From: Ilyobacter polytropus DSM 2926
Lineage (GTDB): Bacteria; Fusobacteriota; Fusobacteriia; Fusobacteriales; Fusobacteriaceae
Length of the DNA: 64,000 nucleotides
Reading direction: 5' to 3'
Assembly (NCBI RefSeq): GCF_000165505.1
Contig: NC_014632.1
Location: 372,001 to 436,000, forward strand
How positions within the stretch are numbered: the stretch's first letter is position 1; every line of letters begins with the position of its first letter. This document shows positions 27,948-37,605 of the stretch, one piece after another. Under the pieces are notes generated by a model. It was given only the letters and a program-made list of their open reading frames with translations. It was not told where the DNA came from and ran no database searches. A program made the position numbers and the translations under genes.

Positions 27948-28353
27948 AATTACTGAATTTACAAGAATATTAGAATCAAGGAATTTTGTCACGAATGAAA
28001 ATCAATGAAAAGCAAAAAAATTAACACGAATAAAGATAAAACCTTTTGGCCACAGAGCATCATAAAAGTGTATGTTGCGCAGAGAAAAAGAGAGAGTTTC
28101 ACAGAGTTAAGACGAAAACTAGATACGAGTTCTTTTGCGAGAGGTTTTCGATCTTTTTTCTTCTGCCATTGACAAAATCAGCGTTAAGAATAACCGCAGT
28201 GAAATCCTTAGAAGAAATCGACTGTTTGAGCGTAGCGAGTTTCGAGTTTTTCTTGGATTTTCAAGGTTATTTAGCTGATTTTTCACGGGCTTGAACTTTT
28301 GGTTACTTTTCTTTCAAGAGAAAAGTAACGGAAGTTTGGATAAATTCAATAAT
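27948..28353 (+). repeat. mosaic A/B repeat element (copy B3)
   Basis: Starts AAATTACTGAATTTA, as family B does, but continues with family A words (TTGTCACGAATG, TTAACACGAATAAAG, TTTTGGCCACAGAG, GAGTTTCACAGAG). It switches near 28130 to the right half of family B (CCATTGACAAAATCAGCGTTAAGAATAACC, GAGCGTAGCGAGTTTCGAG, the GTTACTTTTCT/AGAAAAGTAAC hairpin) and ends GGATAAATTCAATAA. The right end touches the stop codon of the EAL gene at 28354. Confidence 0.82.
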
Positions 28354-29652
28354 CTATCTCTTGAGATTTTCTATCATGTTGTGATAGAAATATGAAGAAT
28401 ATTTTTCGTAAATAATATCAGCAGACTGGGGTTTATCAAAATAATATCCTTGGAAATTATGACAACCCAATGATGTGAGGGTTTTTATATGGTCTTTTGT
28501 CTCGACACCTTCTGCGATAACTTTGAAACCGGATATTTTTCCTACTTTAATTACAAAATCTATTATAAGAGGATTTATTTTGTCAGTATGAATATTTCTC
28601 ACAAATAATTTGTCGATTTTTAATTCAGCTATTGGGAGTTTTTCAAGGTAGCTCAAAGATGAATAGCCGATACCAAAATCATCTATGGAAAATTCGACTC
28701 CTATTTTATTTAGATCTTTCATCTTATTTACTGCCACCTTGAAATTATCTAAGGCTATTCCTTCGGTGATTTCTAAAACTATGAGTTCTGCAATTTCCCG
28801 TGTATTTAAAATTTTCCTTATCTCCTTGGAAAAGTTTGGATTTTGAAAAACTACAGGAGATATATTGACAGATACCTTGGTATTTGTCTTTTGTGAAAAG
28901 TCTACGGCATCTTTTAAGACCTTTTTTGTAAGGTTGTGTATGACAAAAGACTTTTCTGAGATGGGAATAAACTTATCTGGAGGTATCAGCCCCTTTTCAG
29001 GATGAAACCATCTTATGAGAGCTTCAAACTCTATCTGTTTTTCCCTAATAAAAACTTTAGGCTGGAAGAAGGTCCTGAATTCGTTACGGTTTAATCCATC
29101 GATTATCTCTTCTTGAATAATAGCATCTTTGGTACTTTGTTTCTTCTTGTGAAGATTAAGCTGGTGAAAGGATTTTTCTATAAATTCCTGGGCTGTTTCT
29201 CCCTTGTATGCACAGAAGAGCATGTGAAGTTTTAGGTAATAATTTTTTTTGTTTGATGTATTAAAAAGAGAGAGTCTGTTTTGGAGACTCTTTATGAGGG
29301 CAGCTCGGCAGTTAGCCTTGCATCCTTTGAGGATAACAATGAACTTATCTCCTTCGAATCGAACTACGGCATCTGTCTTCCTAAAATTAGAAGAAAGAAT
29401 GTTTCCCACTATTTTTATTAGCTTGTCTCCGGCAGCGATACCAAGTTTATTATTGATATGAGCGAGATTTTGTATATCCACAAGACATAAAGAGACGGGA
29501 GAGTCCTGGAGGTTATCTTTTTTTATGGTATTTTCCAAAATTTCTAGTCCCTTATTTCTATTGAAGGTTTTAGTTAGATGATCCATCTCGTTCAAATTGA
29601 TTATCTTGTTTTTTGTCGCTATATTTTTTTTTTTAGTCTCATAAATGCACAT
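28354..29652 (-). CDS. GGDEF-EAL c-di-GMP protein, cytoplasmic part
   Basis: 432 residues if started at ATG 29652. A GGDEF domain begins DHLTKTFNRNKGLEIL, but its active site reads EGDKF instead of GGDEF, so cyclase activity is doubtful. The EAL domain is complete by eye (FEALIRW, NISPVVFQ, EITEG, SIDDFGIGYSSLSYL, IAEGVET), predicting c-di-GMP phosphodiesterase activity. There is no good ribosome site. The membrane sensor half is encoded just upstream in another frame, overlapping by 34 bases at an A11 tract, so this is very likely the second half of one protein of about 640 residues. Confidence 0.88.
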   Translation of the reverse strand: MCIYETKKKNIATKNKIINLNEMDHLTKTFNRNKGLEILENTIKKDNLQDSPVSLCLVDIQNLAHINNKLGIAAGDKLIKIVGNILSSNFRKTDAVVRFEGDKFIVILKGCKANCRAALIKSLQNRLSLFNTSNKKNYYLKLHMLFCAYKGETAQEFIEKSFHQLNLHKKKQSTKDAIIQEEIIDGLNRNEFRTFFQPKVFIREKQIEFEALIRWFHPEKGLIPPDKFIPISEKSFVIHNLTKKVLKDAVDFSQKTNTKVSVNISPVVFQNPNFSKEIRKILNTREIAELIVLEITEGIALDNFKVAVNKMKDLNKIGVEFSIDDFGIGYSSLSYLEKLPIAELKIDKLFVRNIHTDKINPLIIDFVIKVGKISGFKVIAEGVETKDHIKTLTSLGCHNFQGYYFDKPQSADIIYEKYSSYFYHNMIENLKR

Positions 29653-30290
29653 ATAAGTGGGAGTGAGAGAGCCAGAAAAATTAGTGATCTAAAAGCTCCT
29701 AAGACTAACCATGATATTACGTTTTTTCTAAGATGTGAGATGGTAATGTCTGCCCCTGCAATGTACGGAGTGCCGTCTGATGAAATCTGTGGAAGATAAA
29801 CAGAGCGGTAGCTGTCCCATTTATCTGTGCTGTTTAAAAAAACAGGTTCATCTTTACCGAAAGTCTCAGAGGTAAGAAGATAAGAATCATCTTGGGCGTC
29901 TTTTAAAGAGAGCCAGTAGTAGGGAGTTGGATTCTCTATCAGTTCATCTAAAAGGTCGCTCATCAATGCGTAACGTATATCATTTTCCTTTTTCACCAAC
30001 ATGTACAAATAGTCTATCTCGGTTTTTTTGGCAATGCTGTCCAAGAGAGCACCTTTATTTATAATTTCTTCTTTTGAATATGTGGTTTCATTTATATCTT
30101 TTGTGACGTAATCTTCTCCGACGTAGTATTTTATGTTTTGGGCAGCGGTTAAAAGCTGAAGGTCGATATTTTTTAGTAGCTGTCTTTCCATATGGGTAAT
30201 AGATAGGGAGATGTAGATTACAAAGCCTAAAAGTGCTAAAAGTATAGGGGAACGAAGTTTTTTTAAAAATGAGATATAATCCTTTTTCAT
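29619..30290 (-). CDS. membrane sensor half of the split GGDEF-EAL protein
   Basis: 223 residues: an N-terminal membrane segment (ILLALLGFVIYISLSI), an extracytoplasmic Cache-like region of about 150 residues (IDYLYMLVKKENDIRYALMS), a second membrane segment (VLGAFRSLIFLALSLPLICAF) and then RLKKKI and a stop. The stop comes right after an A11 run (29624-29634 on the + strand). A -1 shift there joins it to the GGDEF-EAL frame, giving the usual sensor-GGDEF-EAL order. AAGGAAGG precedes the ATG at 30290. Confidence 0.82.
   Translation of the reverse strand: MKKDYISFLKKLRSPILLALLGFVIYISLSITHMERQLLKNIDLQLLTAAQNIKYYVGEDYVTKDINETTYSKEEIINKGALLDSIAKKTEIDYLYMLVKKENDIRYALMSDLLDELIENPTPYYWLSLKDAQDDSYLLTSETFGKDEPVFLNSTDKWDSYRSVYLPQISSDGTPYIAGADITISHLRKNVISWLVLGAFRSLIFLALSLPLICAFMRLKKKI
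29624..29634 (-). other. A11 slippery tract at the sensor/GGDEF-EAL junction
   Basis: On the coding (-) strand, CT is followed by eleven A and TATAG. The sensor frame reads CTA AAA AAA AAA ATA TAG; the EAL frame reads ACT AAA AAA AAA AAT. The EAL frame is -1 relative to the sensor frame, and the tract contains the slippery heptamer A AAA AAA. Confidence 0.8.
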
Positions 30291-34166: not shown

Positions 34167-34577
34167 ATGCTCAAGAAGGGTATCTACATTTTAGCGGGGA
34201 TCCTCGTAATTGTTTTGGGATACTTGAACTATTTTAAAGAGGAAAAAGCCATCGAAGTAAAGACAGACAATAAGATAGAGACGTCAGATGTCAACTATGA
34301 ATCTGAAGGATACCGTATAGAGGCCGGAACTCAGATAGATGATTTAGACACCAAGGAGACCAGTTTTAAACTGGCAAAAGCTTTTTTTGAAGATATGAGT
34401 CTCAAGGGAGACAATGTATTTATAGACAGCCTGAAAAACCTTGTCCTGAATGGAAATATAGAGGGAGTAAGTGTAAACGGATGGAAGTTTAACGCTGAAA
34501 ATGCAAAATACAACAATGATCTTTCTAAGATACGTTCTGATACAGGTGTGACGGCATCTAATGATGAAAAAAAATAA
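34167..34577 (+). CDS. lptC: LptC-like N-terminal part of a split LPS-transport protein
   Basis: 136 residues: an N-terminal membrane anchor (GIYILAGILVIVLGYLNYF) and the beginning of an LptC/OstA-like periplasmic region. It stops at TAA 34575-34577 just after an A8 run (34567-34574). A -1 shift at A AAA AAA within that run continues directly into IKVSGKTFETDMKMSYV, the start of the downstream LptA-like protein, so the two belong together. AGGAGG precedes the ATG, 9 bases after mutS. Confidence 0.78.
   Translation: MLKKGIYILAGILVIVLGYLNYFKEEKAIEVKTDNKIETSDVNYESEGYRIEAGTQIDDLDTKETSFKLAKAFFEDMSLKGDNVFIDSLKNLVLNGNIEGVSVNGWKFNAENAKYNNDLSKIRSDTGVTASNDEKK
34567..34574 (+). other. A8 slippery tract at the LptC/LptA-like junction
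   Basis: Frame 0 reads GAA AAA AAA TAA. Slipping back one base on A AAA AAA gives the codons ATA AAA GTT TCT GGG, which open into the 752-residue downstream frame. This is the second -1 junction at an A-run in the window. Confidence 0.75.
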
Positions 34578-34606: not shown

Positions 34607-36865
34607 ATGAAAATGAGTTACGTAAATTTAGATGGCGATATACTGATGGAAAGTGAAAAAATAAAAGTAAGTGCAGACAAAATAAGATACAGTGATGATA
34701 CCAAGATCGCAGACATAATAGGAAATATAAAGGTAAAGGGGGAAAATCTCAGTGAAGATACCCCGGGCTCTCTAGAAGGGAGTTTTAAAAATGCCAGATA
34801 TAATTTGGAATCTAAGGTTTTAGAAGCCTGGGATCCCTTTGTAATAGATTACAACGGAATTAAATTATACGGAGACAAACTAATATATTATGAAGAAACA
34901 GGAAACTTTCTTGTCTCTGAAAATGTTCATGCTGAAAAAGACGGATTTACCCTTTATATGGATAGTATAGAGCATAAATCAGCTGAGAATACTGTAATTT
35001 TTCACTGTGAAATTCAAGGTGGAGACGATATATACTCCATAAAAGGAAAGAATGGATACTATGACACCTTAAAAAAACAGGTGGAACTAAAAGGAGACGT
35101 CGTTGTAAGCTCTAAAGACGGAAAAGAGCTAAAGGCTGACAGAGGAATCTACGAAACTGAGACAAAGGTCTTGTATGCCTACGGAGATACAAAAGATGTA
35201 ATCTATAAATCTCCTGATGGCAAGGTAACTTCTAAAGAGATAGTATATAAAAGTGAAACAGAGGAACTTTTCCTAAATAAAAAATATACTTTTTCAAACC
35301 AGGAATATACCAGCAAGGGTGAGAAGTTTTATTATAATAATCTCACTGGAGCAGGAAAAGCTGAAAAGGGAGATATAAAAAGTAAAGAATTCTACGGAAA
35401 AGGGAATCTTTTGGAGTTCAACACCCAAGAAAAATATTATGAGGCTGTGGGAGATGCTTATTTTGAAAATTCAGATTATTCTGTAGAAAGCTCTAAGCTC
35501 ACCTATGATCAGAACTCAGGTCAGGTCACAGTCCCAGGAAAATATACTGCCAGAGGGAAAAATAAAAATGAGATTTTTAAAGGACTTGAAGCTACCTACA
35601 ACACCCAGTCTGGAGATTTTGTATCTCCTGGAAAGTTTTCTGGTGAAAACTCCGATTATAATTTTGAAGGTGTAGACCTCACATATAATAAAATCAGCGG
35701 AATAGGTAAGATAGACAGAGATATAATAATAACAGGGAAAAGAAATGGTACAAAGATCACAGGAGACAGAGGAAACTTCAAAAACGGTGAGTTTGCAGAT
35801 ATTATAGGAAATATAATAGTGGAAAGTAAAGATATCACAGCAACAGGAAACAAGGCCACATATAAGCAACAGGAAGACAAGGTTTACATTCCTGGAAATA
35901 TAAAACTCAAGGGTAAAACATCAGACTTTAACGGAATTATGAGAGACGGAGTTTTCGATACAGAAAAATCTGTCTATACAGGAAAGGCCTTTGAGGGTAA
36001 GAGTGACACTGCCACAGCATCAGGAGATTTCATAAAATATTATACTGAAAAAGATTCCTTTGAACTTACTGGAAATGTAGTATTGAAAGATCCAGAAACA
36101 GAGATAAGAGGCTCACAGGCTGAGTATTTTATTGATTCAAACGAGATGCAGGCAAAACAGCCTTTCAAAGTATTTTATGACAACCTTGTCATAAACTCTG
36201 CAAAGGGTAAATTTAATATGGACAGCAAGTCTTTAGACGGAAATAAAGTAGTAATTACCTCAAACAACGATGAAAAACTTCAGGGAGATCATGTTTTTGG
36301 TTCTTTTGCAGATAAAAAAGTTGACTTTGTGGGAAATGTAAAGGCATCAATGTATCAAACTGATAAAAAGACCGGAAAAAAAGAACCTGTTAATTTTGAG
36401 GGAAACTCTGCAAGGGTTTACTTTATAGAGGATAACGGGTATAAGGCAAATAGAAGTGAGATAAAAGATAATGGAGTATTCAGATACAGCGGGATGACGC
36501 TGCATTCAGACTACCTGGAACTAGACCTAGTGAGAAATCTGGCCCTAGGAAGAGAGGGGAGCCGGTTAATCATGGAAAACGGAACTGAGGTGACATCTGA
36601 TATAGTAGATGTAAATCTTACTACAGAGGTGGCAAATCTTATAAATAATGTGGAAATAACAAATTTCAGTCAGGAATCAGGATATACCAAGGCTACTGCA
36701 GACAAAGGTATAATCAGAAATAAAGAAAAAATTGCAGAACTTGAGGGAAATGTAAAGGCTGAGAGTGCTACTGCGACTATAGAGGCTGACAAGGGTATTT
36801 ACGATATGAATACCAATAAATTTAAGGCAATAGGGAATGTATTTATAAATTATAAAACAAATTAA
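34607..36865 (+). CDS. very long LptA/OstA-like periplasmic repeat protein
   Basis: 752 residues from ATG 34607; the same frame is open back to 34568, and no good ribosome site precedes the ATG, so it is probably the continuation of the anchored LptC-like ORF (about 900 residues joined). It is built of about twenty ~30-residue repeats of OstA type, such as IKVSADKIRYSDDTKIADIIGN, ELKADRGIYETETKVLYAYG and EIRGSQAEYFIDSNEM. E. coli LptA is under 200 residues, so one chain could replace several stacked LptA units bridging the periplasm. Followed by lptB after 14 bases. Confidence 0.82.
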   Translation: MKMSYVNLDGDILMESEKIKVSADKIRYSDDTKIADIIGNIKVKGENLSEDTPGSLEGSFKNARYNLESKVLEAWDPFVIDYNGIKLYGDKLIYYEETGNFLVSENVHAEKDGFTLYMDSIEHKSAENTVIFHCEIQGGDDIYSIKGKNGYYDTLKKQVELKGDVVVSSKDGKELKADRGIYETETKVLYAYGDTKDVIYKSPDGKVTSKEIVYKSETEELFLNKKYTFSNQEYTSKGEKFYYNNLTGAGKAEKGDIKSKEFYGKGNLLEFNTQEKYYEAVGDAYFENSDYSVESSKLTYDQNSGQVTVPGKYTARGKNKNEIFKGLEATYNTQSGDFVSPGKFSGENSDYNFEGVDLTYNKISGIGKIDRDIIITGKRNGTKITGDRGNFKNGEFADIIGNIIVESKDITATGNKATYKQQEDKVYIPGNIKLKGKTSDFNGIMRDGVFDTEKSVYTGKAFEGKSDTATASGDFIKYYTEKDSFELTGNVVLKDPETEIRGSQAEYFIDSNEMQAKQPFKVFYDNLVINSAKGKFNMDSKSLDGNKVVITSNNDEKLQGDHVFGSFADKKVDFVGNVKASMYQTDKKTGKKEPVNFEGNSARVYFIEDNGYKANRSEIKDNGVFRYSGMTLHSDYLELDLVRNLALGREGSRLIMENGTEVTSDIVDVNLTTEVANLINNVEITNFSQESGYTKATADKGIIRNKEKIAELEGNVKAESATATIEADKGIYDMNTNKFKAIGNVFINYKTN

Positions 36866-36879
36866 GGAGAGATCTCCAT

Positions 36880-37605
36880 ATGAAAAGTATAATAGCACAG
36901 GATTTGTGCAAAAGTTATAAAAAAAGAAGAGTAGTCAATGGAGTCAGTCTAGAGGTGAAAAAAGGTGAAATAGTAGGCCTTTTAGGGCCTAACGGTGCGG
37001 GAAAGACAACTACTTTCTATATGATGACAGGTATAGTGAAACCTGAATCTGGAAAGGTCTGGTGTAACGAGATGGATATAACAGGATTACCGATGTATAA
37101 AAGGGCAAATATGGGTATGGGGTATCTGGCTCAGGAACCTTCAGTGTTTCGAAACCTCACTGTAGAAGAAAATATCTATGCCATACTTGAGATGAGAAAT
37201 ATCTCTAAACCTGAGATGAAGGAAACTATGGAGAAATTACTAGAGGAATTTAAGCTGTCTCATGTGTCTAAATCTTTGGGATATTCATTATCCGGAGGTG
37301 AAAGGAGAAGGGTCGAGATAGCGAGAACCATAGCGAATAATCCGGATTTCATTCTTCTAGACGAACCCTTTGCAGGGGTTGATCCCATAGCAGTAGAGGA
37401 TATACAACAGATAATAAGATATCTAAAGGAAAAGGGATTGGGGATACTGATAACCGACCACAGTGTAAGGGAAACACTAAGCATAACTGAAAAAGCCTAT
37501 ATAATGGCCCAAGGTCAGGTTCTTATAAGTGGTACACCTAAGGAGATCACAGAAAATGAAATGGCCAGAAAAATTTATCTAGGAGAAGGATTTAAACTAG
37601 ATTAA
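36880..37605 (+). CDS. lptB: LPS export ABC transporter ATP-binding protein
   Basis: ATPase that extracts lipopolysaccharide from the inner membrane together with LptF and LptG (found here at 46031-48181). The 241 residues contain Walker A GPNGAGKTT (36-44), LAQEPSVFRNLTVEENI, signature YSLSGGERRR and Walker B ILLDEPFAGVDP, the last being a good LptB marker. AAGGAGAG precedes the ATG. End of the dus-mutS-lptCA-lptB run. Confidence 0.94.
   Translation: MKSIIAQDLCKSYKKRRVVNGVSLEVKKGEIVGLLGPNGAGKTTTFYMMTGIVKPESGKVWCNEMDITGLPMYKRANMGMGYLAQEPSVFRNLTVEENIYAILEMRNISKPEMKETMEKLLEEFKLSHVSKSLGYSLSGGERRRVEIARTIANNPDFILLDEPFAGVDPIAVEDIQQIIRYLKEKGLGILITDHSVRETLSITEKAYIMAQGQVLISGTPKEITENEMARKIYLGEGFKLD

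Follow-up and report, generated by a model that had tools for sequence, protein, structure and literature searches.

In Ilyobacter polytropus DSM 2926, a membrane sensor and a GGDEF-EAL protein are encoded by two overlapping reading frames that meet at a run of eleven A's. This arrangement raises the question of whether the frame change is a recoding device, a phase-variable switch or simply a missing base in what should be one gene. The locus occupies positions 28354-30290, on the minus strand, of the window, i.e., the stretch of 64,000 nucleotides analysed here. It is known from a single I. polytropus assembly, which comprises 3,132,314 bp in replicons of 2.05 Mb, 961,624 bp and 124,226 bp. 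Its features, in window coordinates, are as follows.

30290..29619, minus strand: ORF1, the sensor part, 223 aa plus stop by ORF translation, with the C-terminus MRLKKKI-stop
about 30195-30248, minus strand: first transmembrane helix (TM1) in ORF1
between TM1 and TM2, minus strand: sCACHE-like extracytoplasmic domain of ORF1, from an AlphaFold2 model
about 29640-29720, minus strand: second transmembrane helix (TM2) in ORF1
29624-29634, minus strand: A11 run, the point of the frame break (an exact T-run on the plus strand)
29652..28354, minus strand: ORF2, the GGDEF-EAL part, 432 aa plus stop, with its first ATG inside ORF1
29137..29586, minus strand: degenerate GGDEF domain (PF00990, 87.6 bits, E 9.7e-25)
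29341..29355, minus strand: EGDKF in place of GG(D/E)EF
28429..29106, minus strand: EAL domain (PF00563, 195.9 bits, E 8.5e-58)

ORF1 and ORF2 overlap, and the frame of ORF2 is -1 (= +2) relative to that of ORF1. In the zero frame the tract reads CTA AAA AAA AAA ATA TAG, so that the ORF1 stop codon follows directly after the A11, while the ORF2 frame reads the tract as YETKKKNIATKN. The preliminary description of this locus, which placed the junction of the two frames at an A11 run containing the heptamer A AAA AAA, was accurate on this point: the run lies at 29624-29634 and the heptamer is in the zero frame. Independent expression of ORF2 was considered but seems unlikely, since neither its first ATG nor the ATG just past the ORF1 stop has a good ribosome-binding site when inspected by eye. 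Located 3' of the gene is a dispersed repeat of about 290 bp (28044-28330), which has 63 matching pieces, corresponding to roughly 40 copies, distributed over the two large replicons with up to 97-98 % identity and is also found at the syntenic place in a sister species of the same genus, here G002.

In G002, one 645-aa ORF (C3:443025-444959) spans both parts, and ORF1 and ORF2 are 94-97 % (about 96 %) identical to its product. The earlier proposal that the sensor ORF and the GGDEF-EAL ORF are parts of one protein is thus borne out. Nor is the arrangement likely to be fortuitous, given this single frame in G002 and the rarity of A11 words in I. polytropus: genome-wide there are 10 overlapping words in 7 tracts, vs about 95 words expected from the first-order composition of the window. 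The tract of G002 is A7-G-A4 and is in frame; the A11 of I. polytropus corresponds to this allele minus one base, and the two species differ by no other indel anywhere in the aligned coding region (...GACTAAAAAAA-AAAATATAG in I. polytropus vs ...GACTAAAAAAAGAAAATATAG in G002). Full-length homologues from other genera of the same family (G006, G014, G025, G032 and G036) are likewise single ORFs of about 620-690 codons, with 33-46 % identity to the G002 protein. In those that were aligned, Glu or Gln occupies the position of the tract, and none of the junctions inspected has a long A-run, mixed codons being used instead. The single-ORF sCACHE-GGDEF-EAL proteins of the Fusobacteriaceae therefore share with the I. 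polytropus gene the domain order, the degenerate GGDEF site and the intact EAL domain, but they are read in one frame and lack the A11, whereas the I. polytropus gene is divided between two frames at it. Since the fused gene is present in G002 as well as in other genera, the in-frame fusion is ancestral and the A11 is derived. An intact in-frame orthologue in a near relative combined with a single lesion, as found here, is the mark of a recent pseudogene or of a miscalled gene. Related copies have also decayed elsewhere: G001 contains a truncated remnant, a G002 paralogue is frame-broken at an A7 and G006 has a copy with an in-frame stop. At the level of sequence, this suggests that the sensor family is dispensable and subject to fast turnover.

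Substitution patterns help to date the break. Compared with G002, the sensor half has a dN/dS of 0.134 and the GGDEF-EAL half a dN/dS of 0.066, and a second lesion is absent. Synonymous divergence is uneven along the gene, with a dS of 0.076-0.087 in the sensor and GGDEF segment and 0.44 in the EAL segment, against a median of 0.50 for the 44 genes compared in the window. The segment of low divergence extends over window positions 28980-30290, where dS is about 0.08 vs about 0.5 in the surrounding genes. The gene is thus probably a mosaic, the sensor-GGDEF segment of which would have been exchanged recently between the I. polytropus and G002 lineages. Because the tract lies inside the low-dS segment, the break should be recent and have arisen after this exchange. 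In a break this young, the constraint indicates that the gene has been functional up to recent times and may be so even now, and not that the frame break itself has a function. The lack of further lesions, with both halves strongly constrained, would likewise be compatible with a gene maintained by slippage.

The nature of the intact protein can be deduced in some detail. A Pfam search of ORF1 matched no family. However, its AlphaFold2 model (pLDDT 87) shows a CACHE/PAS-like extracytoplasmic sensor flanked by TM helices. The best structural match is the sensor of a formate-binding chemoreceptor (8py0; Z 14.0, rmsd 3.4, 146 residues), and the sensor of DcuS (3by8; Z 13.7, rmsd 2.5 over 131 residues) and CitA are also among the closest matches. 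As modelled, ORF1 is a CACHE-type sensor between two TM helices. ORF2 contains all EAL motifs (EAL, NIS, E-[IL]-T-E, DDFG, K-I-D, EG-E and QGY). Moreover, E423, N476, E507, D537, D538, K558, E594 and Q614 are invariant in nine aligned homologues and the same residues occur in ORF2. The GGDEF site is degenerate throughout the aligned family. EGDKF had been singled out as a degenerate site, which it is, but the variants EGDKF, NGDQF and SGDQF are normal across the family, EGDKF being the one found here. With EAL catalytic residues that never vary and a GGDEF site that is degenerate in every aligned member, the expectation that EAL activity is the output is supported, and the protein is best interpreted as a ligand-regulated c-di-GMP phosphodiesterase. 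The intact gene most likely encodes a membrane-bound enzyme of this kind, to judge from its conserved residues. It would consist, in order, of the sCACHE-like sensor, with the second TM helix after it, a short juxtamembrane linker, the degenerate GGDEF domain and an EAL domain with its full set of catalytic residues.

Taken together, we are confident that ORF1 and ORF2 belong to one sCACHE-GGDEF(degenerate)-EAL gene in which a single base is missing in this strain only, whether by genuine recent mutation or by miscall, and not to a system of programmed recoding. A mutation could have come about in two ways: the G may have been lost in a single step from an ancestral AAAAAAAGAAAA at the linker, or a G to A change may first have created an A12 from which one A was subsequently lost. 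The alternative branch of the same explanation is that the cells carry an in-frame A12 which was called one base short. The assembly is based on 454 and Illumina reads, with a stated error rate of under 1 in 100,000 (PMC3035301), which leaves room for as many as about 30 errors over 3.13 Mb. On the other hand, 125x Illumina coverage and Polisher were applied for correction (PMC3035301), and a single-step loss of the G would not be a homopolymer undercall.

A comparison of I. polytropus with G002 over 664 kb of syntenic stretches, including about 507 orthologous ORFs examined by a tblastn frame-split test, bears on both branches. A few I. polytropus genes are broken in these 664 kb, and their lesions are mixed: -1 changes at A/T runs, a 23-bp deletion and in-frame stops. 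The clear internal single-base breaks are three in this sample, namely the A11 of the gene at 28354-30290, an A8 in an lptC/lptA-like gene and a T7 at C1:667456. All are -1 at A/T runs, and each can be explained by the undercalling of a longer run. The lptC/lptA-like gene lies in the window (34167-34577 and 34607-36865, plus strand), where it is split at the A8 by a one-base break, whereas G002 has a single ORF of 899 aa; an lptB-like ABC gene starts just after it, at 36880. A sequencing error in the run, which the preliminary description had itself raised against its own proposal, gains support from this second A-run break in an LPS-transport gene. The -1 bias in runs, in one case affecting a gene that is usually important and adjoins the lptB-like gene, suggests 454 undercalls, and the low dN/dS of the otherwise undamaged sensor-GGDEF-EAL gene points the same way. 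However, real gene decay does exist in I. polytropus, as judged from the nonsense codons and the 23-bp deletion. The mixed lesion spectrum and the Illumina polishing therefore put a genuine recent mutation at about an even chance, while a miscall is a serious but somewhat less probable contender.

Other disrupted genes were noted along the way. A 390-codon gene (L158, about C1:736.2 kb) that is about 99 % identical to its G002 counterpart has TGA instead of TCA at codon 68, which could be a nonsense mutation, a base error or something else. For the published DSM 2926 genome as a whole, 54 pseudogenes are given in the table and 108 in the text (PMC3035301). Two further GGDEF genes are frame-broken at A-runs, one on C2 near 312.9 kb (L064:2380-2500; T7A4 vs T7A6 in G002) and the other on C1 near 889.4 kb (L065:2370-2450; an A7 in GAAAAAAAC). 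The idea that c-di-GMP genes are broken more often than others, based on these two and one in G002, was considered but is unconvincing post hoc, given about 29 GGDEF matches and a background of 1-2 %.

If the A11 is genuine, the main product would be a sensor-only membrane peptide of 223 residues. RNA polymerase slippage that adds one A would then yield some full-length protein, in a manner that is incidental rather than selected. The closest precedent is tssM1 of Citrobacter rodentium, where transcriptional slippage on an A11 reaches 20-25 % and one added A restores the full protein (PMC4256274). As in ORF1, the eleven A's are located near the end of the shortened frame. By analogy with this degree of slippage in another organism, the I. 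polytropus gene may retain function. In C. rodentium, however, both products are demonstrated and needed, whereas in I. polytropus the two products are predicted from the DNA and the tract is not conserved. Poly(A) frame breaks rescued by polymerase infidelity are also described in Buchnera and Blochmannia, in work cited in PMC6260861 and PMC5009743. Those cases, as related there, resemble the present one in the AT-rich genome, the single-base A-run break and the constrained coding sequence on both sides; the breaks are described as maintained, in contrast to the young break, confined to one lineage, of I. polytropus.

Slippage could nevertheless be a maintained feature, with a genuine A11 on which RNA polymerase adds an A in some transcripts and with both the sensor-only and the full-length form in use. 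The length and direction of the tract match those of tssM1, where one extra A likewise restores the frame (PMC4256274), the RNA polymerase of E. coli slips once a run exceeds 7 A/T (PMC6260861), a run of about 9 or more A/T does lie at the frame junction, and both halves are under constraint. Yet the tract and the frame break are absent from the relatives examined, so that the tract does not behave as a selected one; the constraint is mostly older than the young break, and a role for the sensor-only form would be hypothetical. We thus regard maintained slippage as improbable. The suggestion of polymerase slippage on the A11 survives as plausible biochemistry but not as an evolved feature of this gene.

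Equally improbable is phase variation, in which A11 and A12 alleles would alternate within the population. Each unit gained or lost would change the frame, and a tract of this length is sufficient for mutability. This earlier suggestion finds no support in the relatives examined, which lack a pure A-tract: their alleles are interrupted (A7GA4 in G002, mixed codons in the others) and the tract has not been kept. In addition, the genome does not use such tracts elsewhere to split genes. Of its 7 tracts of at least 11 A's, two fall well within coding frames; the one at 28354-30290 is alone in splitting a gene, the other being in frame within a 518-codon ORF. Finally, the mutS gene in the window is intact.

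A further variant assumes a genuine A11 that gives, via polymerase slippage, a fixed mixture of the sensor-only peptide and a minority of full-length protein, with the peptide exerting dominant control over the full-length dimer; we consider this scenario to be very doubtful. Least credible of all, to the point of being negligible, is programmed -1 ribosomal frameshifting of the dnaX type on A AAA AAA, for although the slippery heptamer is correct in the zero frame (CTA AAA AAA AAA), the downstream RNA fold is weak and without a clear stimulatory structure (MFE -5.3 to -8.9 kcal/mol, z -1.0 to -1.6), a Shine-Dalgarno-like stretch upstream of the tract was not seen by eye, and the site is not conserved among the relatives examined, which lack the tract, so that ribosomal slippage as a designed device finds no support.

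The break thus seems to be a recent mutation of an ordinary kind, or a sequencing miscall, rather than a built-in switch. For annotation, both ORFs are best treated as one frame-broken sCACHE-GGDEF-EAL gene. More generally, the lengths of A/T runs in the finished, 454-era genome of DSM 2926 deserve checking before biological inferences are drawn from them. If the A11 turns out to be real, the gene would offer a natural test of the amount of protein restored by RNA polymerase slippage in a fusobacterium.
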